The notes below the pieces were generated by a model. It saw only the letters and a program-made list of their open reading frames with translations. It did no database searches and was not told where the DNA came from. Both the position numbers and the translations under genes were made by a program. A stretch of DNA of 64,000 nucleotides from a bacterium A37T11 (lineage in GTDB: Bacteria; Bacteroidota; Bacteroidia; Sphingobacteriales; Sphingobacteriaceae). The stretch covers positions 124,001-188,000 of the forward strand of contig FOBR01000001.1 in NCBI GenBank assembly GCA_900109895.1, given 5' to 3'. Below, piece after piece: positions 3,042 through 55,864 of this stretch; within the stretch, counting starts at the first letter, position 1, and every line of letters begins with the position of its first letter.

Positions 3042-3329
3042 CTATTGAATAACAGTATAGGTATAACTACGGGGTCCGCGGCCGCTACGTATCAGCCAGC
3101 CATGCCGGGCCAGCAGGTTTAGATTGGTATATACCGTAGCCCAACTGATGCCATATTGTTGGCGTAATTGCATCCAAAATGCCTCTACATCATCCACGCT
3201 GCCCGCTGCACAAAGTGCAGCGATCAGGATACGACGCTGTTGGCTTATCAAATAGCCCTGGCGGGCCAGCCCCTCCATGATCTGCCCAGCCAGGGTTATT
3301 GAAGCTTGGGTTACTGCTATAGGCTCCAT
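3042..3329 (-). CDS. Fur-like winged-helix mini-regulator (DNA-binding domain only)
   Basis: This 95-residue protein starts at the ATG at 3327-3329, 19 bp after the heme oxygenase stop. Residues 15-85 match the Fur N-terminal domain: RRILIAALCAAGSVDDVEAF, then ISWATVYTNLNLLARHGWLI (61-80), where ISWATVYTNL is the Fur recognition helix (ISLATVYR in typical Fur). The C-terminal dimerisation domain with its His/Cys/Glu metal ligands is absent; the protein ends SYTYTVIQ. Typical Fur proteins have 130-160 residues. It could still bind DNA alone or interfere with full-length Fur at iron promoters, or be a remnant. Its tight linkage to heme oxygenase suggests a role in iron or heme response. The family call is firm for the fold; the function is inference. 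Confidence 0.75.
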   Translation of the reverse strand: MEPIAVTQASITLAGQIMEGLARQGYLISQQRRILIAALCAAGSVDDVEAFWMQLRQQYGISWATVYTNLNLLARHGWLIRSGRGPRSYTYTVIQ

Positions 3330-3348
3330 CAAAGGAAATAACACAAGC

Positions 3349-3918
3349 CTAGCCTGCGACTGTTTGAAAATCCTGTTCGAAGACATCGCCAAAGCGGGCA
3401 AAGGTTTCATTGGCAGTGCGGATGGCCTGAGCCTCCTCTTCGGCATTGCCCGCCTGCGCACTCAACGCGGCTGTAAATGCTCCCCACATGCGGCCGGTAT
3501 TTTCGCCATATCCCGAGAAAAAGGAGAAACCGGTAGTCATGCCATACTTCTGCAGCATTTGGACAATATAAGGCCCGCCCATGATCGAGCCTTCCAACAC
3601 ATATAATGCGCTCAAAGCCTCAAGCGGGCTGTTTATCATGGGGGTATAGACCACAGGCAGCTGGTCTACACTGCTCCCAAGTGCCTCTATATCGTTCCGG
3701 AGATAGGATGAATTGCGACGGTCTGCCTGGTCGGGAAGCAGCGTTTCACTGATATAAGGGGCAATCACCGATTCCACGGCGTTAAAATAAGCATAAAAAT
3801 ATTTCAGGAAGCCGGCATAATCTTCGGCGCTGCGGATCGATTTCAATTTAAGGACCACCGTTTTTTCCAGTTGCTGATGTGCTTCACGGGTCGCTTCTTT
3901 GATTTTTGTACTGAGCAT
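3349..3918 (-). CDS. hmuO: biliverdin-producing heme oxygenase
   Basis: This 189-residue protein has the heme oxygenase family length. It would open heme to biliverdin, CO and ferrous iron in the cytoplasm. Visible features are REAHQQL with the likely proximal heme ligand H14, the YVLEGSxxGG motif (106-115, read as LYVLEGSIMGG) and SGYGENTG (135-142), corresponding to the distal glycine-rich helix. The ATG start at 3916-3918 is the first plausible one. It heads a minus-strand unit (heme oxygenase, mini-Fur, lipoproteins) divergent from the heme ABC importer hmuTUV, so imported heme could be used as an iron source. Three copies of a 21-bp repeat lie in the shared upstream region. The gene appears intact. 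Confidence 0.9.
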   Translation of the reverse strand: MLSTKIKEATREAHQQLEKTVVLKLKSIRSAEDYAGFLKYFYAYFNAVESVIAPYISETLLPDQADRRNSSYLRNDIEALGSSVDQLPVVYTPMINSPLEALSALYVLEGSIMGGPYIVQMLQKYGMTTGFSFFSGYGENTGRMWGAFTAALSAQAGNAEEEAQAIRTANETFARFGDVFEQDFQTVAG

Positions 3919-3985
3919 AATAATATATTTAATGAATAAAACATCTGAATAAACAAAGGTGGGTATTGAGAACGGAACACATTCT

Positions 3986-4048
3986 ATGCGATCCGGATTA
4001 TTTTATATGCAATCCGTATTATTTTATATGCAATCCGTATTATTTCGG
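3986..4048 (+). repeat. three tandem 21-bp repeats in the hmuO/hmuT divergent region
   Basis: Three head-to-tail 21-bp units at 3986-4006, 4007-4027 and 4028-4048 share the core GCAATCCGTATTATTT. The first unit differs at three positions within this stretch. Single copies of the same core occur at 11871-11891 upstream of hmuY and at 32581-32600 upstream of the hmuY remnant. The placement between divergent iron genes and before hmuY copies suggests a regulator-binding element, but a degenerate mobile repeat cannot be excluded. Confidence 0.7.
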
Positions 4049-4078
4049 CAGCCTGCTGGCTACATTGCTCTGTTGGTT

Positions 4079-4086
4079 TATCTTTG
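4079..4086 (+). promoter_or_regulatory. TANNTTTG (-7) element five bases before hmuT ATG
   Basis: TATCTTTG matches the Bacteroidota -7 consensus and ends five bases before the ATG at 4092. A transcript from it would start at or next to the start codon (leaderless). No convincing -33 element was found, so this is tentative. Confidence 0.4.
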
Positions 4087-4091
4087 CGGAT

Positions 4092-4934
4092 ATGCGGAGA
4101 ACGATCAGCTTTATCTATATATTTAACCTGTTGGTCCTTTGCGCCGTCGCTGCCCCGCCCAAACGGATCATCACGCTGAGCGGAGCGCTTAGTGAAACGG
4201 TGGATGCCCTGGGCTTAGGTTCGTCCATCGTTGCTGTGGATGTCACCAGCATCTATCCGGCCTATGTGAAGGCATTGCCACGGGTCAGCAAAAACCGTTC
4301 AGTCTTGGCTGAAGGCCTGATGGCTTTTCACCCCGATCTCGTGCTCGCCCCGGCAGGGAACGTTTCACCCGAAGTGGAGCGGCAGCTCAGGACCCTGGGA
4401 GTAAGGTGGGTAAATATCCGCCAGGAATAATCGGCCAAAGGTGCACTGCATTTTATCCGTGAAGTAGCTACCGCCGTAGGATTGCCCGAAAAAGGGAAAC
4501 TACTGGCCAGTAAAACAGAAAGTCAGATCGGGCAAGCCCTTCAGGAAGTCAAGTCAAGGACAGTTAACTATACGCCCCGCTTGCTTTTTATCTATGCCCG
4601 GGGCGCCGGTACGATGAGCGTTGCCGGCAAAGGCAGCAGCCTGGACGCCATCATCAGCCTGGCCGGAGGCCGCAATGCCGTGCAGGAATTCAATGATTTT
4701 AAACCCTATATTACCGAGTCGTTGGTCAAAGCCAATCCGGACGTCATCCTGCTCTTTGACTTTGGCCTCAGCAGCTTGGGTGGCACCTCCGCCGTATTGA
4801 AAATGCCGGGCATGGCCCTTACCAACGCCGGCAAAAATAAACGCATTGTGCAGATGGATGGACAGTTGCTCATCAATTTCAGTGTACGGCTGGCTGATGC
4901 TATTCGTAGCCTCAACAAACTGCTTATTCCATAA
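4092..4934 (+). pseudogene. hmuT: heme ABC transporter substrate-binding protein HmuT, interrupted by an in-frame TAA
   Basis: The ATG at 4092 begins a short signal peptide (MRRTISFIYIFNLLVLCAVA) followed by the TroA-like heme-binding fold: PPKRIITLSGALSETVDALG, then FHPDLVLAP. At 4428-4430 a TAA interrupts it (WVNIRQE, stop, SAKGALHFIREV). The same frame then continues without shift to 4934 through PRLLFIYARGAGTMSVAGKG and KANPDVILLFDFGL, both typical of HmuT. An aromatic codon is expected here, so TAT or TAC to TAA by one substitution is the likely event. As read, only a 112-residue N-terminal piece would be made and periplasmic heme delivery to HmuUV would be lost, unless the stop is suppressed. 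A start at 4482 would lack a signal peptide. Confidence 0.85.
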
Positions 4935-4942
4935 TAGTCCTT

Positions 4943-5983
4943 TTGAAAAGAAAAATCATATACGTTTTGCTCGTTGCCGGGCTATTGCTGTCAGTAGCCC
5001 TGTCCCTCAGTTTTGGGGCCATGCACATTCCCCTGCGTGATGTACTATTGGCTTTTGCCCATCGGCTAGGCTTGTGGACAGACATGCAGCTGGATGAAAC
5101 TTACGCAGGCGTCATTAACGTCCTGCGTTTACCCCGCATATTGCTGGGCATGCTCGTGGGTGCTGCACTGGGTATTTCAGGCGCCGCGATCCAGGGTATC
5201 TTTCGCAATCCGTTGGCAGAACCCGGCCTTATCGGTATCTCAGCCGGGGCTTCGCTGATGGCCGCTACCATTATTGTGCTTGAACCGATGCTCTTGGCAG
5301 GACTCAGCGCCATTCTTGGCTATTATTTATTGGCCTTCGGCGCATTTGCCGGTGCAGGCTTTGCCGCCTTCCTCATTTATCAGATCGCCAAAAGCGACGG
5401 ACGCCCTCAGGTAGCTACCATGCTGCTCGCCGGTATTGCCATCAATGCACTGGCAGGAGCGCTTACCGGCATCATCAGTTACCTCTCTTCTGAACAACAG
5501 CTCCGGTCCATCACTTTCTGGATGCTGGGAAGCCTGGGCGGAGCCAGCTGGGAAATGGTCTGGTGCCTGTTGCCGTTTGCCGGGCTTGCCATTGTATTGT
5601 TGCCCTTTCAGGCCCGCTCGCTCAATGCCTTTGCTTTAGGCGAATCGCAGGCCGACCAACTGGGCATGCGCAGCGGCCGGATCAAGACACAGGTCGTATT
5701 ACTGACCACGTTGGCCGTCGGGGCTTCTGTGGCCGTATCCGGCATCATTGGTTTTGTCGGCTTGCTGGTACCTCACATCTTCCGGTTGCTTGGCGGCCCT
5801 GACCACAAGTATGTATTGCCGGCCTCCGCTTTAATGGGAGCTTTTATCCTCACCATTGCCGATCTGCTGTGCCGCGTGCTCACCGCTCCCATAGAATTGC
5901 CCATTGGCGTGATCACAGCCTTACTGGGGACACCTGTTTTCTTATATATCCTCATAAAAGACAAAAAGAAATTGCTCCATTAA
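4943..5983 (+). CDS. hmuU: heme ABC transporter permease (FecCD family)
   Basis: This 346-residue polytopic membrane protein has FecCD/BtuC hallmarks: LRLPRILLGMLVGAALGISG, GAAIQGIFRNPLAEPGLIGI and VSGIIGFVGLLVPHIFRLL (the EAA-like coupling region), then ADLLCRV and a C-terminal ELPIGVITALLGTPVFLYIL. It would form the inner-membrane channel of the heme importer with HmuT and HmuV. The most likely start is the TTG at 4943-4945, eight bases after the hmuT stop, giving MKRKIIYVLLVAGLLL, whose first hydrophobic segment is the expected first helix. The gene is complete, in contrast to the broken hmuT just upstream. Confidence 0.9.
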   Translation: MKRKIIYVLLVAGLLLSVALSLSFGAMHIPLRDVLLAFAHRLGLWTDMQLDETYAGVINVLRLPRILLGMLVGAALGISGAAIQGIFRNPLAEPGLIGISAGASLMAATIIVLEPMLLAGLSAILGYYLLAFGAFAGAGFAAFLIYQIAKSDGRPQVATMLLAGIAINALAGALTGIISYLSSEQQLRSITFWMLGSLGGASWEMVWCLLPFAGLAIVLLPFQARSLNAFALGESQADQLGMRSGRIKTQVVLLTTLAVGASVAVSGIIGFVGLLVPHIFRLLGGPDHKYVLPASALMGAFILTIADLLCRVLTAPIELPIGVITALLGTPVFLYILIKDKKKLLH

Positions 5984-5984
5984 C

Positions 5985-5992
5985 TATATTTG
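5985..5992 (+). promoter_or_regulatory. TANNTTTG element five bases before hmuV ATG
   Basis: TATATTTG fits the Bacteroidota -7 consensus. The spacing to the ATG (five bases) equals that at hmuT and at the SWIM gene, which suggests a leaderless internal promoter. No clear -33 partner was identified. Confidence 0.35.
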
Positions 5993-5997
5993 CCTGC

Positions 5998-6849
5998 ATG
6001 ATGCTCAGTACGGAAGCCATTACTTACTCCATAAAAAACCATATCCTGCTTAAGGATGTCTGTTTTAGCCTTCACAAAGGTGAACTATTGGCTATTCTGG
6101 GTGCCAATGGTGCTGGTAAGTCTACACTCATCCGTTTGTTAAGCGGAGAGAAAAAGCCCGATTCAGGTAGCATACGGCTTGCTGGCAAACCCATCGGCAC
6201 CTACACCTCCACTGAACTTGCTTTATTAAGGGCAACGATGAGCCAGCAGCAGGCGGTGTCCCTTGATTTCACGGCCGAAGAGATCGTGCTGATGGGCCGT
6301 TACCCCCATTACAAGAATCAGCCGGCCCCGTCTGACCGGCTCGCCGTGGAAGAAACCATGGCTGTATGCGGAGTGGGCCATTTGGCAGCACGCAGCTATC
6401 TGTCCTTGTCGGGTGGCGAGCAGCAACGTGTACAACTGGCGCGGGTGCTATCGCAGATATGGGACCGCCCTGGCGCCCTGCTGCTCATGGATGAACCTGT
6501 TTCGGCCATGGACATGCAGTTTCAGCACCAAACGCTGGCCATTATACGGGCTCTGGCCAACCGCGGGTTTATGGTGATCACGGTATTGCACGATATCAAC
6601 CTGGCCGCGCAATATGCAGACCGCATACTCCTGATGAAAAATGGCCGGAAACTCTATGACGGCACACCAGCCGAAGTACTGAACAGCCGGAATATCTATA
6701 CAGTATTTTCTATGGATGTGCAGGTGCAGGTTAACACGGCTTCCTTAAAGACCATTGTACTGCCTAAAGAGATCAAAATGGGGGTAGAAAGCTTTAACAG
6801 CATGTTGCCGTCAGAAAAGCTTAAAGCGGAAAGCGAAAATATTAGTTAA
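5998..6849 (+). CDS. hmuV: heme ABC transporter ATP-binding protein
   Basis: This 283-residue ABC ATPase has Walker A GANGAGKST (35-43), signature LSGGE (137-141), Walker B LLLMDE (161-166) and the switch histidine in VLHDINLAAQYADRI. The layout matches HmuV/FecE-type ATPases that power heme or siderophore import with a FecCD permease. ATGs at 5998 and 6001 are both in frame; the first is chosen. A TATATTTG at 5985-5992 ends five bases before it and may give a separate, leaderless transcript. It ends the hmuTUV unit and converges on the AraC regulator gene across a repeat-rich spacer. No defects are seen. Confidence 0.9.
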   Translation: MMLSTEAITYSIKNHILLKDVCFSLHKGELLAILGANGAGKSTLIRLLSGEKKPDSGSIRLAGKPIGTYTSTELALLRATMSQQQAVSLDFTAEEIVLMGRYPHYKNQPAPSDRLAVEETMAVCGVGHLAARSYLSLSGGEQQRVQLARVLSQIWDRPGALLLMDEPVSAMDMQFQHQTLAIIRALANRGFMVITVLHDINLAAQYADRILLMKNGRKLYDGTPAEVLNSRNIYTVFSMDVQVQVNTASLKTIVLPKEIKMGVESFNSMLPSEKLKAESENIS

Positions 6850-7111: not shown

Positions 7112-8086
7112 TTATTTCAAATCACTAGGCGGAATGCCAAAGTATTTCTTGAAGGCAATGCTAAAATTATTCTGATGGGAGAAGCCCACCAGCGAGGCAA
7201 CTTCAAAGATCGGCCTATTTTCTTCCAGCAGCAGATGGCGCGCATGTTCCATACGCAAGCGTGTAATGTAATCATACACGGTGGTGCCAAAATATTCTTT
7301 AAAGCCACGCCGCAGTTTAAATTCATTGAGCATGACTTCCCTTGACAGTTCTTTTTGGGTCGGCGGATGATGGAACCTTTCCCCCAAGATCTGGCGAGCA
7401 TGCTCCAATTTTGTCACATCATCACCTTTTACCTGCTCAGGTTCAGGGCTGCCATGGTTTAATTGTTCCAGCTGGTACATCAGCAATTCCAGAATGCGGG
7501 CTTCTGTATGAATGCGCTTAAGCTCGCCATGCTGCCGGCAGCTGATCATATCGTCAATCACGCGCCGCATCTCCATCGTTACAAAAAAATCCTCTGAAGC
7601 AAAAGAGGTATATTCCCCCCGCTCAATCTCCTTCACGAAATCTTCATGCAACAGGGAATGCCTGTCAATGAGGTTAAAATAATAATCTTTGCTAAGCACT
7701 ACCAGAAAATAAGTATACTCCACATCTTCCCTGATCAGGTGCGATTCAATGGTTGACGGAATATAGCGGATGTTGTGCCGGCTACGTCCATAAAGCGTAT
7801 TGGGTTGTTTTTTACCCAGGTCCTGGCTCTGTCGGTAAAAGATGAATTGGCTGGTGATCGTTTCACCTACCACTTCTGTCTGGATATTAAGTGCCTCGTC
7901 AAATTTCATTTCTGAATGCATGACGAACAATCCCCCTGTTGTTAGCTGTTGGTTGACCATAAAAACCGGGCTGCGTTTGATAGCTACTTGTTTCTCTGCT
8001 AAACGGTAGCCAGGTGTATAAGAATCCGGAATATCCTCTATAAACAGCCAATCATTGTGACCGTCAATCTTTGATTTTATCAGCAT
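7112..8086 (-). CDS. PchR-like AraC family regulator
   Basis: This 324-residue protein starts at the ATG at 8084-8086, preceded by GGATAGG. The C-terminal 100 residues form the AraC double helix-turn-helix (LRRGFKEYFGTTVYDYITRL, then IFEVASLVGFSHQNNFSIAF and FGIPPSDL). The N-terminal 200 residues are the less conserved sensor region typical of PchR-type regulators of siderophore and heme uptake genes. It lies between the heme importer and the heme receptor, which suggests it activates one or both. Its own promoter carries a Fur-like box (8122-8146), so it is probably repressed when iron is plentiful. A second regulator of the same type lies at 19040. Confidence 0.85.
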   Translation of the reverse strand: MLIKSKIDGHNDWLFIEDIPDSYTPGYRLAEKQVAIKRSPVFMVNQQLTTGGLFVMHSEMKFDEALNIQTEVVGETITSQFIFYRQSQDLGKKQPNTLYGRSRHNIRYIPSTIESHLIREDVEYTYFLVVLSKDYYFNLIDRHSLLHEDFVKEIERGEYTSFASEDFFVTMEMRRVIDDMISCRQHGELKRIHTEARILELLMYQLEQLNHGSPEPEQVKGDDVTKLEHARQILGERFHHPPTQKELSREVMLNEFKLRRGFKEYFGTTVYDYITRLRMEHARHLLLEENRPIFEVASLVGFSHQNNFSIAFKKYFGIPPSDLK

Positions 8087-8110
8087 CCTATCCTTTTTTG
8101 ATATTCCCCA

Positions 8111-8146
8111 CAAATATAACAATTATTTATATTCGTTCTAAATAAT
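8111..8146 (-). promoter_or_regulatory. Fur-like box overlapping the AraC gene promoter
   Basis: On the minus strand, TATATTTG at 8118-8111 is a good -7 element. Immediately upstream, 8122-8146 holds an imperfect palindrome with arms ATTATTTA and TTCTAAATAAT around a short centre. It resembles the ATTTAGAATnATTCTAAAT iron box. Occupancy would cover the -33 region and block transcription. Confidence 0.6.
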
Positions 8147-8256: not shown

Positions 8257-8280
8257 TTCATCGGGATCTGTGCTACGCTA
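8257..8280. repeat. REP-like 24-bp repeat, copy 1
   Basis: A segment beginning TTCATCGGGATCTGTGCTAC recurs at 31902-31925 with 22 of 24 bases identical. Here it overlaps the stop codon of the TonB receptor gene. Both copies lie beside decayed iron genes. Confidence 0.55.
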
Positions 8281-10478
8281 TGAAAAGTTTTTTAAAAAAA
8301 AACGGTAGGTGAAACCGGCCATGAATACCCGGACGGGCTGGCCCGGCACCAGCATGTTTTGAAAACCGAGCAGGTTGTCTGCGCTGAAACGCAGGCTCAG
8401 GTGCTGGTCCATCAGTTTTTTTTCCAGCGCGGCGTTGAGCAAGGTATATCCCGGCACGAAGGTGTCATATCGATCAATGAACTGGTTGCCGTTATAGTCG
8501 CTGAAAGGATATTTTCCCCGGTAGTTGACCCGGATGTTGGCACTCAGGTCCCAGGGCCGGTAGGTATAGAACACACGGGCATTGAGCATATGCCGCGACC
8601 GGTTCTCGATGCCCCAGTAGTCTGACGGCCTGGGTGCAAACGAGTCGCCGGTGGCCGGGTCATGGATGTTCTGGTTATAGGGGCAATGCCCGGCCCTGAT
8701 GCTATCCTCCACACTCAGGTCTTTGGAGATCAGGTATTGGTAACCCATACTCAGCTCCAGGTCTGGCAGCGGGTTCAGCGTCAGGCTGGCCTCCACCCCT
8801 TTATTGACTGCCTCCGGCAGATTTTGGTATGAATAGATCTGGCTGATGCCGGTACCCGTAGCCACCAGCACCGGGTTGATCTGGTCGCGGATGCGATGAT
8901 AAAAGCCCCCGGCCTCCAATGTGGCCTGTTGCGAGGGCTTCCAGGTGATACCCGCATTCCAGGACGTATTGCGTTCAGCACGGAGGTTCTTGTCCAGCTG
9001 GCCCACCACATAGCGCCTGATCTCGCTGATCTGCCCTTCAGCCTGCATCTGGCTAAGGGTTTGGTTAAGCAGGTCGTTGCCAATAACCATGTAATTGGCA
9101 GCCGGATTATAAAAGACCAGATAGCGCATGCGAAAATCAGGGGCTTTGAACCCCATTCCTACCCCTGCCCTAAAAAGCCACTGCGGGCTTAGCTGGTATT
9201 GCAAGCCCAGATTGGGGTTTGCTTTTCCGCCATAACTCCGGGTATGGTCATAACGCATTCCACCCAATGCCGAGAGCTTTTTGCTGATCCGCCAATCGCC
9301 CTGGATATAAGCAAAGGCCGTCGTGAGGCTGTGTACATCGCTCAGTGCCTGGTCATCCATCTTTTCCAGGCTGCCCCCTGCCCCAGCCGTCAGATTCAGG
9401 CCGGCAGCCGGCAGGCCCAGCGCAAACTGCTGCTCAAAGCGGTGTAGGTCCTGCCCGAATACCTCCTGGCCTGCCACCGATTGCTGTGCCTGCCACAACA
9501 CACTCATGTCTGAAGTATAACGTGTAAAATAATAGCGGCTCATGCTACGCATGCCCGAGCGGAAAGTATGGTCAAACGTGGCGGCCAGGTTCAGGTCGTT
9601 TTCGTCCTGGCTATCCCCGGATACGAGGCCATCGCCCCAATCTTTAGGCATGTACGACCTGCGCAGGCCGTAACGTACACTGCCCCCCACGGTACTGTTC
9701 TTGCTCAGCCGGTACCGGGCGCGGCCTTGTATGCTGTAATTATCATAAGGGGGTGCCGTTGTGCCCGACATCAGATAGGGATTGGTATTAAAACCATCTG
9801 TGCGGTAATAATTGCCTGATACCGTAACCGATCCGCGCTGGTTGCGAAAGGGCGTCTCCCCTTCCAGTGTAGCGTCCACAATGTTCAGGCTGCCGTAACT
9901 CAACGATGCGGAGGCCTGTGGCGTAATGGCCCCGTACCGTGTGATGATGTTGATGGCCCCACTCATGGCCTCGCTGCCGAACAAACAAGAAGAAGTCCCT
10001 TTGACGATCTCGATGCGTTCAATATTGCTGACGCTGATGCGCGAAAGGTCAAAATTGCCGCTGTTTCGGCCTACCATGGGCTGCCCGTCTATGAGGACCA
10101 TGACGTAATCACTGCTGAAACCCTGCATCTGCACCCCTACCGAACGTGCCCCACCACTTATGTTGTTAACGATGGCCATACCGGTCTGCTCCTTGAGCAC
10201 TTCATCCAGCCGGCGGCTGCCCATTAGCTCAATCGTGCGGCGCGTAATGACCTGGACGGGCATCGCACTGCGGTCCAACCGGAGGAAGTTATCAGGATTT
10301 TCACCCGCCGTTTTTTCACCAACCACCGACACCTCATCCAGGGCGCTGCTGCCCGGATGGAGTGTGATATTCAGCTGCTGTACTTGACCGGCTTCAATCG
10401 TCACCTAATCACGATAAGTGCCGTAGCCCATATGGCTCACCTCCAGCACATAGGTGCCGGCATAGTTTTGACACCGGT
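8278..10478 (-). pseudogene. hmuR: heme-type TonB-dependent receptor, 5' end deleted and in-frame TAG
   Basis: The plug and barrel are open from 10404 to 8278 (708 codons): plug motifs MPVQVITRRTIELMGSRRLD, VMVLIDGQPMVGRNSG and GSEAMSGAINIITR, a FRAP-like GFKAPDFRM and NLRAE, then a C-terminal AGFTYRFFLKNF. FRAP and NPNL-type motifs are typical of HmuR/HemR heme receptors. Upstream, the frame contains the end of a carboxypeptidase-regulatory-like domain (NYAGTYVLEVSHMGYGTYRD) and is cut by TAG at 10405-10407. Before about 10475 the sequence changes to the 3' part of hmuY2. The signal peptide and half of the N-terminal domain are therefore missing. A start at the GTG at 10404 would give a protein without an export signal, so the receptor is very probably non-functional. 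Confidence 0.85.
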
Positions 10479-11114
10479 GTAGAGCGATGCCGGGAAATCC
10501 TGCGCCATCCGTTCTGACAAGGCATACAGCATATGAGCGTAATTGGCCGCCTCCAGTTGCACATCCAGCGGATAGGATGTATCCAGATACCCTACCACTT
10601 TATCGGGCCGGAACATGTTGCGAAAGAACGTGTAGGCCACATGACCCATGCCGTTGCCAAACTCAACGATAGCATCGAGGCCTGAATATCCCGGAAAAGC
10701 AAATAAACCGTCTTAGGGTACGTCCTGAATGATACTATATGCGAGTTCAGCAAGATACAACCCACCTACGGCCGAAGAACCATACCCCAATCCGGCTACC
10801 TTACCGTTATTGGTAGTTATACTGCTTCTTCCCTGACCCGAAAAAGCCATGTCCCAGCGATCAGTAGTCTTATAAAGGGTGTTCGTGGAGTTGAGTTTTT
10901 CCAGACTAAAATACAAAGGGTCGTTTGCATCCAAAGGCTTGTGGCCTTCAGGAAGGTTGTCGCCGAGATTCATGACCAGGATATCGCGGTTGAACAACGT
11001 ATCACTCATCGGCACATCCGGTTCATAGTCGAAACCGTTCAGGTCATAAACATCGCCGCAGGAAGCCACCATGAGAGCTATGGCAACAACAACTGCAAAT
11101 GGTTCTTTGGACAA
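10475..11114 (-). pseudogene. second HmuY-like lipoprotein, in-frame TAA and fused 3' end
   Basis: The likely start is the TTG at 11114, preceded by AAGGGA, giving a lipoprotein signal (FAVVVAIALMVASC). The body has HmuY-family features: PLYFSLEKLNSTNTLYKTTD then RWDMAFSGQGRSSITTNN. TAA at 10713-10715 interrupts it after SIIQDVP. The same frame then runs on through GLFAFPGYSGLDAIVEFG and PDKVVGYLDTSYPLDVQLEA to about 10475, where it meets the heme receptor sequence in another frame. One nonsense change and one deletion junction are therefore present. HmuY-type lipoproteins bind heme at the cell surface and pass it to the TonB receptor. The gene overlaps no neighbour and follows hmuY by 20 bases. 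Confidence 0.7.
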
Positions 11115-11134
11115 TTTCCAACATCCCTTAACAG

Positions 11135-11836
11135 TTAACGTGTGTTCAGGTTCCTGCTCCCATCCTGCTGCACAAAATAGCGGAATGTAAAATAAGGTGC
11201 CGGCCAATACATGTCTGTCACAGCGGGCGGGTTACCCTTATAGGCACTTAAAAGCTGTAGTTTCGCATACTTCCCATTGGGCAGGCGGAGCACATATGTA
11301 CGATTGGGAAGGGCTTTCAAAAGATGGGTGGTCAAGTCGTAGGAGAACCAGCCCCCATCGCCCTCTGCTTGTGACCAGCCGGTTTTAGTGAGCGAACTTT
11401 GGTCAAATTCGGCATCCGATGGCGCCTCAATTACGGCCTCGTAAGATTGCTGCTTCAGCAGGATAGCCGTATGGTTGGCCGGTCCGCCAAAACCAGGATT
11501 ACCGGCATCCGTAGTATTGTTAAGGTATACTTCGCTGTTATAGTTGCCCGTAAAAGCAATATCCCAATCAGCGGTTTTCAACCACTGCGACGAATCGGCT
11601 TTCGTCCGTGTCCATATTTGCTTTTTGTCACTGAAACGGAACAAAAACGGATAGAATGGTCGGTTTTCCTTCCCATCTATACCACCTGCCACCGAAGCCT
11701 GCGTATCGCCGGCCAGGTCATAGACCACGGTACTTTTGCCATCTTCCAACGAAGGCGTAACGTGTTCATCCTTTCCGCAGGCAGTCAGAAGAAATAGAAG
11801 CCAAACACTATTTATATTTGTTCTAAATAAATTCAT
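11135..11836 (-). CDS. hmuY: HmuY family heme-binding lipoprotein
   Basis: This 233-residue lipoprotein starts at the ATG at 11834-11836. The signal peptide MNLFRTNINSVWLLFLLTAC ends in a lipobox Cys at residue 20. The HmuY pattern is clear: DGKSTVVYDLAGDTQASVAG, FLFRFSDKKQIWTRTKADSS, WDIAFTGNYNSEVYLNN, GGWFSYDLTTHLLKALPNRT and the C-terminal FTFRYFVQQDGSRNL. HmuY proteins capture heme at the cell surface for the cognate TonB receptor. The gene looks intact although hmuY2 and hmuR downstream are damaged. A perfect hairpin overlaps the start codon, and a Fur-like motif lies inside codons 2-9. A remnant of a close paralogue is at 32395-32570. Confidence 0.85.
   Translation of the reverse strand: MNLFRTNINSVWLLFLLTACGKDEHVTPSLEDGKSTVVYDLAGDTQASVAGGIDGKENRPFYPFLFRFSDKKQIWTRTKADSSQWLKTADWDIAFTGNYNSEVYLNNTTDAGNPGFGGPANHTAILLKQQSYEAVIEAPSDAEFDQSSLTKTGWSQAEGDGGWFSYDLTTHLLKALPNRTYVLRLPNGKYAKLQLLSAYKGNPPAVTDMYWPAPYFTFRYFVQQDGSRNLNTR
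11808..11830 (-). promoter_or_regulatory. Fur-like motif inside the 5' coding region of hmuY
   Basis: On the minus strand TTATTTAGAACAAATATAAA matches the 23-base ATTTAGAAT-type palindrome at 19 of 23 positions. It encodes residues 2-9 of HmuY. This may be a roadblock operator or chance. Confidence 0.4.
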
Positions 11837-11855
11837 TCCGCAAAAATGCGGAATG
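11834..11855 (-). promoter_or_regulatory. perfect 9-bp hairpin spanning the hmuY start codon
   Basis: CATTCCGCA (11834-11842), four A, then TGCGGAATG (11847-11855) form a perfect inverted repeat whose minus-strand end is the hmuY ATG. In an RNA starting upstream it would bury the start codon. A weak -7-like CATTTTTG lies within it, so the alternative is a promoter with a palindromic operator. Confidence 0.45.
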
Positions 11856-11870
11856 CACACCGGTTAGCAT

Positions 11871-11891
11871 ATATTCAATCCGTATTATTTG
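11871..11891 (+). repeat. single copy of the 21-bp iron-locus repeat
   Basis: ATTCAATCCGTATTATTTG matches the core of the tandem repeats at 3986-4048 with one change. It lies 35-55 bases upstream of the hmuY start codon and has the same orientation relative to hmuY as the tandem array has to hmuO. Confidence 0.6.
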
Positions 11892-18943: not shown

Positions 18944-18974
18944 TTATTTAGAATTATTTTAAAAAACAAAATTA
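18944..18974 (-). promoter_or_regulatory. promoter and Fur-like box of the second TonB receptor
   Basis: Minus-strand TAATTTTG at 18974-18967 is a -7 element. Directly after it, 18944-18966 reads ATTTAGAATTATTTTAAA in its core, 21 of 23 bases matching the palindrome TTATTTAGAAT-n-ATTCTAAATAA. It would cover the transcription start and is the best iron box in the window. The divergent AraC gene begins 66 bases away. Confidence 0.7.
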
Positions 18975-32570: not shown

Positions 32571-32580
32571 TTTAGCGTAT

Positions 32581-32600
32581 ATGCAATCCGTATTATTTGA
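32581..32600 (+). repeat. single copy of the 21-bp iron-locus repeat
   Basis: ATGCAATCCGTATTATTTGA matches the core of the tandem repeats at 3986-4048. It is placed upstream of the third hmuY remnant in the same relative orientation as at 11871. Confidence 0.65.
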
Positions 32601-32627: not shown

Positions 32628-33329
32628 TTATTGCTTTAAAATGTTACGCAGCATAGCCAAATAACTATCACCTACTTGTATTTCCCGGTTTGTAAGGCCC
32701 AATTTTTTATTCCGAAGGTACCTAATTTTTTCAACCGATACAATAAAACTGCGGTGCACACGTAAAAATTGCGACTCAGGCAATTTATCCAAGATTTTTT
32801 TTAGGGAAAATAAGGTAATAACGGGCTTACCTTCGGTCAGGTAAATCTTAATATAATCTTCCATCCCTTCAATGTATTCTATTTGGTTGAGAGGGATCCT
32901 AACCAACTTATAACTTGAATATACTGTAATAAATGGCACTTCCTGCCCGGCTAAATTTATTTGGTTTTGATAGGCCATTAATGATCCAGCCTTACTAATC
33001 GCCCTTTCAAAGCGGTCAAATGTAAACGGCTTTAATAAATAGTCAACAGCATTTACTTCAAAGCCTTCATGCGCATGCTGTTTATAGGCCGTAGTAAAAA
33101 TCACCATGGGCGGTTTTGGCAGCGAGCGTAATAAATCCAAACCATTAATATCTGGCATGTTAATATCCAGCAATAGTAGATCCGGCAACGACGATCTCAG
33201 GTATTCACCAGCGGACAGGGCATCATCAAAGCACGCCTTTAACTGTAAAAAAGGAATCTGCGAGGCATATTTTGCAATCAATTGAAGCGACAATGGCTCA
33301 TCGTCTACCGCTACACACGTTATGTTCAT
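32628..33329 (-). CDS. LytTR family response regulator
   Basis: This 233-residue regulator has an N-terminal receiver domain (VAVDDEP acidic pair at 9-11, phosphorylation site D55 in LLLLDINMPD, VIFTTAYKQH with the conserved Lys) and a C-terminal LytTR DNA-binding domain (YKLVRIPLNQIEYIEGMEDY, LPESQFLRVHRSFIVSVEKI). It overlaps its sensor kinase gene by four bases and is its partner. Targets are unknown; the adjacent beta-helix lipoprotein gene is the obvious candidate because such pairs often control their neighbour. Confidence 0.9.
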   Translation of the reverse strand: MNITCVAVDDEPLSLQLIAKYASQIPFLQLKACFDDALSAGEYLRSSLPDLLLLDINMPDINGLDLLRSLPKPPMVIFTTAYKQHAHEGFEVNAVDYLLKPFTFDRFERAISKAGSLMAYQNQINLAGQEVPFITVYSSYKLVRIPLNQIEYIEGMEDYIKIYLTEGKPVITLFSLKKILDKLPESQFLRVHRSFIVSVEKIRYLRNKKLGLTNREIQVGDSYLAMLRNILKQ

Positions 33330-51694: not shown

Positions 51695-52705
51695 TTATAA
51701 TTTAACAGCCCTTTCCAATTGTTCTTTATTTGCTTCCTGCAACCTTAAATTCTTTTTAATGACCGGTGGCGGGGCGGGTAATTCGTAATGATTTGCTGAG
51801 ATCACCGAGGTATTTTCAATATGTCTCGGCCCATCGATCACCCAGTCAACCGTAGCTTTCTTATCAAAACGACAAGTGTTACAAATAAATTCTTCTACCT
51901 CTCCGTACACGTCTTTACGGGCTGTAACCCGTAATACTTCTTCCCCTTTGTACCAAAGCGTTACTTTTCCGCTGCAGGTAGGGCAATCCCGGTGTGCATC
52001 TACAGGTTTGGTAAACCATACCCTGTTCTTAAACCGGAAGGTTTTATCGGTCAATGCACCCACGGGGCAAACATCGATGATATTTCCGGAAAAATCGTTA
52101 TCGATGGCTTTTTCAATATAAGTGGATATTTCTGAGGCGTCTCCCCTACCCAGCACACCGTGTACCCGTTGATTAGTGATCTGGTCTGCGGTGTAGACAC
52201 AACGGTAACACAGGATGCAACGCGTCATGTGCAGTTGTATTTTATCACCAATATCGATCTTCTCAAAGGTACGCCGTTCAAATTCATAGCGCGTAGCGGC
52301 AGAGCCGTGTTCATAGCCCAGATCCTGAAGCTTACATTCACCGGCTTGGTCACAAATGGGGCAGTCCAACGGGTGGTTGAGCAATAAGATTTCAACAACT
52401 CCTTTGCGGGCCTCTACCACTTCGGGTGAAGTGATATTGAGCACTTCCATCCCATCCATCACCGTGGTACGGCAGGAAGCAACCAGTTTAGGCATGGGCC
52501 GCGGATCCTTTTCTGAACCTTTGCTTACTTTAACCAGACAGGTACGGCACTTACCGCCGCTTCCTTCTAGTTTGGAGTAATAACACATAGCAGGTGGCAC
52601 AATGTCACCGCCTATTTGTCTTGCTGCATTTAGGATCGTCGTTCCCGGTGCTACTTCAACCGGTATTCCGTCTATACTTACTTTAAATTTAACGTCATCA
52701 GCCAT
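51695..52705 (-). CDS. nuoG: NADH-quinone oxidoreductase subunit G, short form
   Basis: This 336-residue protein has the N-terminal 2Fe-2S domain (MCYYSKLEGSGGKCRTCLVK), a His-ligated 4Fe-4S (HPLDCPICDQAGECKLQD) and a second 4Fe-4S region (CILCYRCVY), then a CPTC/CNTC pair that could hold a further cluster or zinc. The large C-terminal molybdopterin-type domain of E. coli NuoG (over 900 residues) is absent. The gene is not broken: it ends cleanly with three bases to nuoH. Short NuoG proteins are known in Bacteroidota. Confidence 0.9.
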   Translation of the reverse strand: MADDVKFKVSIDGIPVEVAPGTTILNAARQIGGDIVPPAMCYYSKLEGSGGKCRTCLVKVSKGSEKDPRPMPKLVASCRTTVMDGMEVLNITSPEVVEARKGVVEILLLNHPLDCPICDQAGECKLQDLGYEHGSAATRYEFERRTFEKIDIGDKIQLHMTRCILCYRCVYTADQITNQRVHGVLGRGDASEISTYIEKAIDNDFSGNIIDVCPVGALTDKTFRFKNRVWFTKPVDAHRDCPTCSGKVTLWYKGEEVLRVTARKDVYGEVEEFICNTCRFDKKATVDWVIDGPRHIENTSVISANHYELPAPPPVIKKNLRLQEANKEQLERAVKL

Positions 52706-52724
52706 ATCTATTCGCGTTTAGCAA

Positions 52725-54083
52725 CTAGCTTTGAACAAGCGGTTCCAAGGGGTCTGCATAGTGCGCCAGCCCATAGTTCCGTATTTGTGATTCTTCCCTG
52801 TTTGACACATGCCACTCAAACTCATCCCTGAAATGACGGATGGCGCTGGCTACCGGCCATGCAGAGGCATCGCCCAACGGGCAAATGGTATTTCCTTCAA
52901 TCTTTTTGGATACATCGACCAGCAGATCCATATCACTGAATGATCCATGGCCGTATTCAAGCCGATGCAATATTTTTTCCATCCACCCGGTGCCTTCGCG
53001 GCAGGGTGAGCATTGTCCACAACTTTCATGATGGTAAAATCGGGCAAAATTCCAGGTGTTGCGAACTATACATTGGTCTTCGTCAAAAACAATAAATCCG
53101 CCAGAACCCATGGACGAGCCACTGACAAAACCACCGTCAGCAAGGGATTCATAGGTCATCAGACGCGATTCACCCTTGGCGGTTTTTGTCGCCAGGTTGG
53201 CGGGCAGGATGGGTACGGATGAGCCGCCGGCTACCATAGCTTTAAATCGTTTGCCATTGGCAATACCGCCGCAATACTCGTCTGAATAGATAAATTCTTC
53301 GACAGGTACTCCCAATTCAATTTCATATACACCGGGTTTGTTGATGTTGCCGGAGGCTGAGATGAGTTTGGTACCCGTGCTGCGCTCAATGCCTATCTTG
53401 GCATATTCTTCGCCGCCATCATTAATAATAGGTACGGTAGCTGCAATGGATTCAACGTTGTTTACCACAGTTGGACTACCGTAAAGTCCGGAAACAGCGG
53501 GAAAAGGAGGTTTCAGCCTTGGATTACCCCGCTTTCCTTCTAATGATTCCAGCAAGGCAGTCTCTTCGCCACATATGTAAGCTCCGCCGCCTGGTTGTAC
53601 GTAAAGCTCCAGGTCGTAGCCGGTACCCAAAATATTTTTACCCAGTAATCCAGCGGCTTTGGCTTCGGCAATGGCTTTTTCCAATATCCTTATTTGCGGC
53701 ATCATTTCGCCGCGTACGTAAATATAGGAAACCTTTGCGCCCAAGGCATAGCTGGATACGATCATACCCTCAATAAGCGCATGGGGGATGTAGGTCATTA
53801 AAAAACGATCTTTGAAGGTGCCGGGTTCGGATTCATCCCCATTGCATACCAGGTATCGCGGCACACCTTCAGGTTTGGCCAGAAAACTCCACTTCATCCC
53901 GGTAGGGAATCCGGCTCCGCCCCGGCCGCGAAGCCCTGATTTTTTGACTTCCTCCACCACTTCATCGGGAGTCATGGTTTTTAATGCCTTCTCCACGGCC
54001 CTGTATCCCCCTTTTTGACGGTATACTTCCAAGGTATTGATACCGGGGACATTGATATTTGCTAACAATAACTTCCTTGCCAT
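52725..54083 (-). CDS. nuoF: NADH-quinone oxidoreductase subunit F
   Basis: This 452-residue subunit contains the FMN and NADH sites (GLRGRGGAGFPTGMKWSFLA, GAYICGEETALLESLEGKRG) and the 4Fe-4S cluster N3 ligands (SCGQCSPCREGTGWMEKIL, with NTICPLGDASAWPV). NADH is oxidised here. It is adjacent to nuoE, its partner in the dehydrogenase module. Confidence 0.95.
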   Translation of the reverse strand: MARKLLLANINVPGINTLEVYRQKGGYRAVEKALKTMTPDEVVEEVKKSGLRGRGGAGFPTGMKWSFLAKPEGVPRYLVCNGDESEPGTFKDRFLMTYIPHALIEGMIVSSYALGAKVSYIYVRGEMMPQIRILEKAIAEAKAAGLLGKNILGTGYDLELYVQPGGGAYICGEETALLESLEGKRGNPRLKPPFPAVSGLYGSPTVVNNVESIAATVPIINDGGEEYAKIGIERSTGTKLISASGNINKPGVYEIELGVPVEEFIYSDEYCGGIANGKRFKAMVAGGSSVPILPANLATKTAKGESRLMTYESLADGGFVSGSSMGSGGFIVFDEDQCIVRNTWNFARFYHHESCGQCSPCREGTGWMEKILHRLEYGHGSFSDMDLLVDVSKKIEGNTICPLGDASAWPVASAIRHFRDEFEWHVSNREESQIRNYGLAHYADPLEPLVQS

Positions 54084-54087
54084 ATGA

Positions 54088-54630
54088 TTAGCTGTTGGCG
54101 CTTAGCGGTTGGCTGCCAGCGTTGTTTTTCAGATTTGTTAAGAGCTCGTCGACCTTTTCTTCGGTCAGGTTTTCATAAAACGTATATTCAGGTCCTATTT
54201 GTAATACCGGCCCGAATCCGCAGGCGGCCAGGCATTCTACACCCCGCCAGCTGAAGAGCCCGTCTGCCGTGACTTCGCCTTCCTTTACGCCCAGCCGGTC
54301 TTCAAGGTGCTCCATAATACGTTCTGCGCCCACTAAGCAACAGGGCCCGGTACGGCAAACTTCCAGCATGTATTTTCCCTGCGGCTGCAGGAAATACATG
54401 GTATAAAACGTAGCGACCTCGTATACTTCAATCGGTTCCAGCTTTAGATAGCTGGCCACCTGATCCATAGCGGGTACACTAAGCCATCCAAAATGCGCTT
54501 GCACTTCATGTAATATGGGCAGTAGTGCCGACTTATGACGGCCTTCCGGATAGCGGCCTACGATATCTGCAAATTTAGCCAGCAGCGTTGGCGCAAATTC
54601 AACCGGTTCGTTTTGTGTTACACTAAGCAT
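54088..54630 (-). CDS. nuoE: NADH-quinone oxidoreductase subunit E
   Basis: This 180-residue thioredoxin-like 2Fe-2S protein (cluster N1a) has CRTGPCCLVG and CLAACGFGPVLQ as the four Cys ligands. The N-terminus has the helical IVGRYPEGRHKSALLPILHE. Its start overlaps the nuoD stop by eight bases. Confidence 0.95.
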   Translation of the reverse strand: MLSVTQNEPVEFAPTLLAKFADIVGRYPEGRHKSALLPILHEVQAHFGWLSVPAMDQVASYLKLEPIEVYEVATFYTMYFLQPQGKYMLEVCRTGPCCLVGAERIMEHLEDRLGVKEGEVTADGLFSWRGVECLAACGFGPVLQIGPEYTFYENLTEEKVDELLTNLKNNAGSQPLSANS

Positions 54631-55864
54631 CTAATTCTCCTGCAATAACGTTTAAGCTACTCATGTTGATGATAGCATCTGATAGCAGCATACCGCTGCT
54701 CATGGGTGCGTACATTTGATAGTTGATAAAAGAAGGCCTCCTGAAATGTAACCGATAGGGCGAGCGGCCGCCATCGTTGATCAGGTAAAAACCTAACTCG
54801 CCGTTGCCGCCTTCTACGCAGTGGTATACTTCTGATTTGGGGGTATCAACTTCGCCCATCACAATTTTAAAGTGATAGATAAGGGCTTCCATATTGTTAT
54901 AAACCTGTTCTTTGGGCGGCAGGTAAAATTCTGGCACGTCGGCATGAAAGATCCCTTTGGGTTCTTTGGCTATTTTTTCCAGGCATTGATCAATCATTCG
55001 CATGCTTTGGCGCATTTCCTCGTTGCGTACCATATACCGGTCATAGACGTCGCCATTGGTGCCAACCGGAACGTCGAAATCAAGTTCGTCATAGGATGAA
55101 TAGGGTTCATTCGCTCTTACATCATAGTCAACGCCGGTAGCCCGAAGGATGGGTCCGCTCCAGCTGTAGCTCAGGGCAGTCTCCGGGTCGACAGCTGCGA
55201 CACCTGCGGTACGGTCTATAAAAATCCGGTTGCGGGTAAAGAGTTCTTCAAATTCATCCAATACAGGGGTAAACCGTTTGGTGAAGGCTTTGATCTTGGC
55301 CAGAGCAGTTTCATTAAAATCACGCTCAAGCCCGCCTATACGGCCAATATTGGTAGTAAGACGTGAGCCGCATATTTCTTCAAAGATCTCGTAGATAAAC
55401 TCCCGCTCTTGCATCACGTACAAAAAGCCTGAAAATGCGCCGGTGTCGACCCCCAATATACCGTTGCAAATAATGTGATCGGCAATGCGGGAGAGTTCCA
55501 TAATGATAATGCGCATGTATTGCACCCGTTTGGGTATTTCGATATTCAGCAGTTTCTCAACAGTCATGTGCCAGCCCATGTTATTGATGGGCGACGAACA
55601 GTAGTTAAGACGGTCTGTGAGTGGCGTTATTTGATAAAAAGGCCGGTGCTCGGCAATTTTTTCAAATGCCCGGTGAATATAACCAATGGTTGAAACGCCG
55701 CTGACGATACGCTCTCCATCTACCTGCAATACGTTTTGAAAAACGCCGTGGGTAGCCGGATGGGTAGGCCCCAAATTGAGGGTGGTCAGTTCATCCTGCG
55801 GATCATTGTCCGTAAAAACGGGATGATTATGGTTCAGGTGCTGGGGTGTGATCAATTCGCTCAT
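54623..55864 (-). CDS. nuoD: NADH-quinone oxidoreductase subunit D
   Basis: This 413-residue 49-kDa-type subunit lines the quinone site. It shows LGPTHPATHGVFQNVLQVDG, EKIAEHRPFYQITPLTDRLN and GGNGELGFYLINDGGRSPYR. It is separate from NuoC (not fused as in E. coli). Intact and of family length. Confidence 0.95.
   Translation of the reverse strand: MSELITPQHLNHNHPVFTDNDPQDELTTLNLGPTHPATHGVFQNVLQVDGERIVSGVSTIGYIHRAFEKIAEHRPFYQITPLTDRLNYCSSPINNMGWHMTVEKLLNIEIPKRVQYMRIIIMELSRIADHIICNGILGVDTGAFSGFLYVMQEREFIYEIFEEICGSRLTTNIGRIGGLERDFNETALAKIKAFTKRFTPVLDEFEELFTRNRIFIDRTAGVAAVDPETALSYSWSGPILRATGVDYDVRANEPYSSYDELDFDVPVGTNGDVYDRYMVRNEEMRQSMRMIDQCLEKIAKEPKGIFHADVPEFYLPPKEQVYNNMEALIYHFKIVMGEVDTPKSEVYHCVEGGNGELGFYLINDGGRSPYRLHFRRPSFINYQMYAPMSSGMLLSDAIINMSSLNVIAGELDA

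Follow-up and report, generated by a model that had tools for sequence, protein, structure and literature searches.

A short Fur-like gene located beside a heme oxygenase gene in this soil-type Bacteroidota genome belongs to a conserved family of naturally short Fur proteins (mini-Furs), which end just past the winged helix, are maintained by purifying selection and are recurrently linked to heme oxygenase. We tentatively suggest, with a probability of about 0.4, that the mini-Fur acts as a regulator independent of metal, that it is co-produced with heme oxygenase in a Fur- and AraC-controlled heme regulon and that it damps uptake promoters, although we infer both its target and the direction of its effect. 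The features of the heme locus in the window (the whole stretch of DNA analysed, 64,000 nucleotides) are as follows.

3042-3329, minus strand: mini-Fur, a 95-aa Fur-type winged-helix domain (Pfam, family profile and predicted structure)
3349-3918, minus strand: heme oxygenase of the HemO/PigA type (PF01126)
3982-4041, minus strand: three tandem 18-bp copies in the heme oxygenase/hmuT divergent promoter, predicted AraC activator sites (repeat matches)
3966-4934, plus strand: periplasmic binding protein gene (hmuT-like) with an in-frame TAA at 4428-4430 that splits it (intact relative in locus L138)
4943-5983, plus strand: FecCD-family permease (hmuU-like)
5992-6849, plus strand: ABC ATPase (hmuV-like)
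7112-8122, minus strand: AraC-family regulator (PF12833, E 2.3e-22)
8125-8143, plus strand: Fur-box-like palindrome ATTTATATTCGTTCTAAAT, just upstream of the AraC gene (conserved position in related loci)
8278-10404, minus strand: TonB-dependent receptor (hmuR-like)
11135-11860, minus strand: HmuY heme-binding protein (PF14064)
11810-11828, plus strand: Fur-box-like palindrome ATTTATATTTGTTCTAAAT at the hmuY start (conserved position in related loci)
11869-11886, minus strand: single 18-bp iteron copy with 2 mismatches, before hmuY (repeat match)

A conserved short Fur without the metal-binding half

The mini-Fur gene runs from an ATG at 3329 to a stop at 3042 and encodes 95 aa. An alternative GTG frame (3042-3461, 139 aa) overlaps the heme oxygenase gene, and the 95-aa form is preferred because it fits the lengths of the homologues. 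The original prediction had described an undamaged gene whose 95-residue product ends after the winged helix, and its coordinates and size proved correct. When the single protein was compared with the Pfam FUR profile, it scored 20.5 bits over profile positions 3-61 of 121, which is below the cut-off of 23.1, and 33 of the 39 aligned family members matched the same profile. A profile built from these 39 proteins retrieved Fur/PerR chains from the PDB with a best E value of 5.8e-14. The AlphaFold model (mean pLDDT 89) consists of four helices and a two-strand wing, and its best PDB matches in Foldseek were the DNA-binding domains of PerR and MgFur (TMq 0.66-0.76). Judged by profile and predicted model, the mini-Fur is a Fur-type winged-helix DNA-binding domain.

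Fur proteins are metal sensors whose DNA binding is gated by metal. The mini-Fur resembles the Fur family (Fur, PerR, Mur; PF01475) in its N-terminal winged helix, on which profile, predicted fold and backbone-contact residues agree, but it ends just past the wing without the C-terminal dimerisation/metal-binding domain, lacks the metal ligand His33 and carries two Trp residues in place of a Tyr and an Arg of the host Fur. Its 95 residues contain one Cys and one His, and no C-terminal ligands are present. The DNA-binding domain of E. coli Fur (PDB 2fu4, 83 residues) has about the same extent, indicating that this half can fold alone; that structure is presumably of a fragment cut in the laboratory, whereas the mini-Fur is a natural, conserved short gene. 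Searches of the open literature brought up no account of a naturally occurring Fur that consists of the DNA-binding part only.

The same genome also encodes an ordinary Fur of 166 aa, a 144-aa member of the Fur family resembling Zur, and a second mini-Fur of 97 aa. This paralogue lies about 5.6 kb away, just beyond the window (G000:C15:121235-121535; L004 11230-11535), is 55% identical to the mini-Fur of the window and exceeds the Pfam FUR cut-off with 24.9 bits. It is positioned just 3' of an IPT/TIG lipoprotein gene and ahead of an ECF sigma / FecR / SusC / SusD / metallopeptidase / DUF4302 operon, and a fasciclin-type lipoprotein is encoded between the two mini-Furs.

Among 399 genomes from its bacterial family, a search with the single protein revealed short-ORF relatives in 38, including the named species Sphingobacterium tabacisoli, S. 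faecale, S. pedocola, S. corticibacterium and S. micropteri. The original prediction had pointed to full-length orthologues as the sign of a mere remnant, but all 39 proteins of the aligned set are 79-111 aa long, and they have 0-17 residues past the wing, where 16 ordinary Furs from this bacterial family have 58-76. When the family profile was run over 400 genomes, ordinary Fur was detected in nearly every one, with scores of about 59 bits and frames of some 155-230 aa. The mini-Furs scored higher, about 70-113 bits, and none of their frames exceeded 147 aa; only the most divergent one (genome G280, 63 bits) came near the scores of ordinary Fur. In a quick tree, the 16 ordinary Furs grouped in a single clade (support 0.98) that contained no mini-Fur, and a handful of the most divergent mini-Furs branched outside the main mini-Fur group, so that the mini-Furs may not all share a common origin. 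The dN/dS values were 0.069-0.164 for related mini-Fur pairs with a usable estimate and 0.229 for the mini-Fur of the window against its paralogue; the family is under purifying selection.

One might still regard the mini-Fur as a truncated remnant of a full-length Fur, since the FUR profile is matched over its first half only and two genes nearby, hmuT and a second hmuY, are interrupted in the same genome. However, the short form is conserved across those 38 genomes as a sequence group of its own with low dN/dS, and an ordinary Fur is present elsewhere in the genome. With orthologues that are short and not full-length, we rejected this explanation, whose likelihood appears close to nil. A class-wide search of 395 genomes at E 1e-17, a threshold that excludes ordinary Fur, gave no mini-Fur relative beyond the window's own genome, and close relatives therefore look confined to this bacterial family, while more diverged ones may occur elsewhere. 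Relatives were also looked for in viral contigs and in plasmids; none was found in either, and a mobile or phage-borne gene was rejected on this ground.

Linkage to heme oxygenase and the heme uptake locus

The heme oxygenase gene lies 19 bp upstream of the mini-Fur gene, the distance given in the original prediction and measured here between 3329 and 3349. Its product matches PF01126 with an E value of 2.3e-15 over positions 3-203 of 204, that is, over the full length of the family, and has pa-HO (1sk7) and HemO (1j77) as solved relatives, so that heme-degrading activity would be expected from its family. The two genes are probably in the same operon and would then be co-transcribed.

Conserved heme oxygenase/mini-Fur neighbours, for which the original prediction had proposed a search, do exist. 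Heme oxygenase is found within two genes of the mini-Fur in 15 of 41 other loci and in the window, giving 16 linked loci, and in 10 of these it immediately precedes the mini-Fur on the same strand, 1-19 bp away. These ten loci usually also encode an AraC regulator and a heme-type ABC transporter as well as HmuY. Eight loci beyond the window have a common arrangement, in which an AraC gene and a heme-type ABC transporter are followed by the divergent promoter, heme oxygenase, mini-Fur and HmuY. Genes for heme oxygenase are widespread, occurring in 235 of 399 genomes, and most heme oxygenases therefore occur without a mini-Fur. In 35 of the 41 loci, a gene of an iron or heme uptake type lies within six genes of the mini-Fur, a figure that includes some background, TonB receptors being common in Bacteroidota. 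Mini-Furs without heme oxygenase are often last in TonB receptor operons, for example with DUF4374 lipoproteins. In five loci (L045, L046, L047, L048 and L060), the mini-Furs lie away from any recognised iron gene, and the upstream sequence is conserved around TTATGCAATATATA.

HmuY and a TonB receptor are common to the window locus and the Hmu/Hfp heme uptake systems of Bacteroidota (HmuY, HmuR). In Flavobacterium psychrophilum, the hfp genes for HmuY and a TonB receptor are under iron control, with Fur as the suspected regulator (PMC9331221). Beyond these components, the window locus adds the heme oxygenase, the mini-Fur, the ABC transporter and the AraC regulator with its iterons.

Iterons and Fur-box-like palindromes

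The strongest cis-element found was an 18-bp iteron, AATACGGATTGCATATAA, which is repeated at a 21-bp pitch in the divergent promoter (3919-4092), with exact copies at 4003-4020 and 4024-4041 and a copy with 3 mismatches at 3982-3999. Within 3 mismatches, the window contains 5 matches against 0.15 expected. The iteron recurs exactly before heme oxygenase in eight relatives, usually again before hmuY, and more than one near-exact copy is present in 10 of 399 genomes, all of which also carry a mini-Fur; five other genomes of the 399 have a single copy with one mismatch, which is about the rate of the reversed control. Another one-mismatch copy is located at 32577-32594 of the window, just downstream of a response-regulator gene (32628-33329).

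We first considered the mini-Fur itself as the protein that binds the iterons upstream of heme oxygenase and hmuY, with monomers lined up along the DNA, since direct repeats would suit a monomeric binder and all ten genomes with more than one near-exact copy possess a mini-Fur. However, in locus L138 (genome G279) the iterons are found between hmuT and hmuY beside an orthologous AraC gene with no mini-Fur there, and the mini-Fur/heme oxygenase pair of that genome lies on another contig without iterons. In addition, the AraC regulator, which has an AraC-type HTH C-terminal domain, is 67-74% identical in all eight relatives with the iteron in the heme oxygenase promoter and its HTH helices are near-invariant, like the iteron, while the mini-Furs of the same loci are 33-48% identical and have a changing recognition helix. 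Direct repeats at a 21-bp pitch are also usual for AraC/XylS activators, and the window likewise has a local AraC gene together with iterons of this pitch, to which its product is predicted to bind. Binding of the mini-Fur to the iterons was largely rejected on the basis of L138 and the AraC conservation, and we consider it very unlikely. From the co-conservation and from L138, the iterons are probably AraC activator sites. By inspection, about 23 bp separate the end of the iteron closest to heme oxygenase from a TTTTG-like -7 box that follows it, a placement that would fit the position of an activator.

For the boxes of the original prediction, the outcome depended on their definition: the window contains 2 copies of the bare 9-mer ATTTAGAAT where 1.05 would be expected, which is no enrichment, whereas the full palindrome ATTTAGAATNATTCTAAAT is enriched when up to 3 mismatches are allowed, with 6 copies against an expectation of 0.07. 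The palindromes at the AraC start (8125) and at the hmuY start (11810) occupy the same places in related loci. Further Fur-box-like palindromes are present outside the heme locus at window positions 18946 and 20781, with 2 and 3 mismatches, respectively.

DNA-reading residues and the proposed role of the mini-Fur

In MgFur, Lys15, Tyr56 and Arg57 read the DNA, and Thr17, Gln19, Arg20, Ser51 and Thr54 hold the backbone (PMC4506495). Among the 39 mini-Furs, Arg20 is kept in 36, Ser51 in 36, Thr54 in 33 and Tyr56 in 29, with His at the last position in 8 others. His33 is replaced by Ile or Val in 32 of 39, and is Val in the protein of the window. All 16 sampled copies of the host's ordinary Fur carry identical residues at the positions that read DNA (Arg at 15, Arg52, Tyr56, Asn57 and Glu60), whereas the mini-Furs are variable at 15 and have mostly Trp52, Tyr or His at 56, Ser, Asn, Thr or Lys at 57 and mostly Arg or Lys at 60. 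The recognition-helix positions differ even between mini-Furs with the same neighbourhood. Binding to the same boxes is uncertain because the mini-Furs differ at these positions from the host Fur and among themselves; by residue comparison the picture is mixed, some contacts being kept and some changed. The loss of Arg57, which we dropped as proof against Fur-box binding, is uninformative on shared boxes since the host Fur itself has Asn57. The other differences, together with the variability among the mini-Furs, suggest that not all of them read the same DNA site.

These residues bear directly on the proposal in the original prediction that a DNA-binding-only Fur competes at the iron boxes. 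If the mini-Fur occupied the Fur boxes of the island instead of iron-loaded Fur, it would keep heme uptake on. The Fur-box-like palindromes located where AraC and hmuY begin, both in the window and in related loci, are consistent with such competition, as is the Tyr-Asn pair at 56-57 that some mini-Furs (L062, L068 and L072) share with the host Fur, and the missing Arg57 is no counter-argument. However, the mini-Fur diverges from the invariant host Fur at positions 15, 52, 56, 57 and 60, and it would have to compete with dimeric Fur without a dimerisation domain of its own. We regard competition as unlikely, although it is the alternative to be taken most seriously. Thus, the picture of an undamaged, DNA-binding-only Fur that is coupled to heme oxygenase and is no remnant stands, while its extension to competition at the iron boxes is made uncertain by the differing DNA-reading positions.

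It could also be that the mini-Fur works through another protein, as a heterodimer or adaptor with full-length Fur or AraC, or in a heme-responsive form, for example via the Cys of the LC motif. The Trp residues conserved at two positions (35 of 39 and 29 of 39) and absent from ordinary Fur could form a contact surface, and the Cys in question (Cys40) is kept in 23 of 39 mini-Furs; against this, it is lost in several heme-oxygenase-linked members. We think that a partner or heme-responsive form is quite improbable.

For the favoured explanation, a metal-independent regulator made with heme oxygenase, we propose the following order of events. Low iron would relieve Fur repression at AraC and hmuY, as the palindromes suggest, and the AraC-type activator would then drive heme oxygenase, mini-Fur and hmuY through the 21-bp-pitch iterons. 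The mini-Fur would accumulate alongside heme oxygenase once the local heme regulon has been turned on and, needing no metal, would act by occupancy of DNA. Since the metal-sensing and dimerisation half is lost, its activity should depend on the amount made and not on iron binding. One point against this is that a Fur DNA-binding domain may have a low affinity for DNA as a monomer. Most likely, the mini-Fur would bind at least one heme or iron uptake promoter and damp it, serving as a local feedback repressor without a need for iron; repression rather than activation is a guess. Against this explanation also stand the variation of the recognition helix among members with the same neighbourhood, the possible partial decay of the locus in this genome and the outcome of the operator search. 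No operator common to the mini-Fur promoters of 24 groups was found, the best 7-mer (1.8e-5 over about 3450 words) being non-significant after correction, and promoter alignments of close mini-Fur groups gave no trustworthy palindrome.

More broadly, the mini-Furs may, at slightly less than even odds, represent an undescribed class of metal-independent regulators across the heme and iron operons of Sphingobacteriaceae, which consist of the Fur DNA-binding domain only, each with its own operator, and whose expression level would set repression or anti-repression of heme uptake. If so, the Fur fold would have been put to a new use in heme oxygenase operons, as a regulator that does not sense. 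The mini-Fur offers a small system for asking what a lone Fur winged helix can do, and heme uptake of Sphingobacteriaceae, which include culturable species, gains a concrete proposed wiring of Fur boxes, AraC, iterons and mini-Fur.

Some heme uptake genes are interrupted in this genome. Besides the split hmuT, the gene for a second HmuY-type lipoprotein after hmuY (10437-11207) appears to be broken into two frames, while its counterpart in L138 (9513-10415, 300 aa) is intact. The broken frames may be draft errors, and the broken hmuT and hmuY copies otherwise indicate that the heme locus may be partly decayed in this genome. A further hmuY copy preceded by an iteron, near 53,000-54,000 of C15 in locus L099 (G000:C15, about 52,500-55,500), is broken into several frames and lies beside an ECF-type sigma factor gene.
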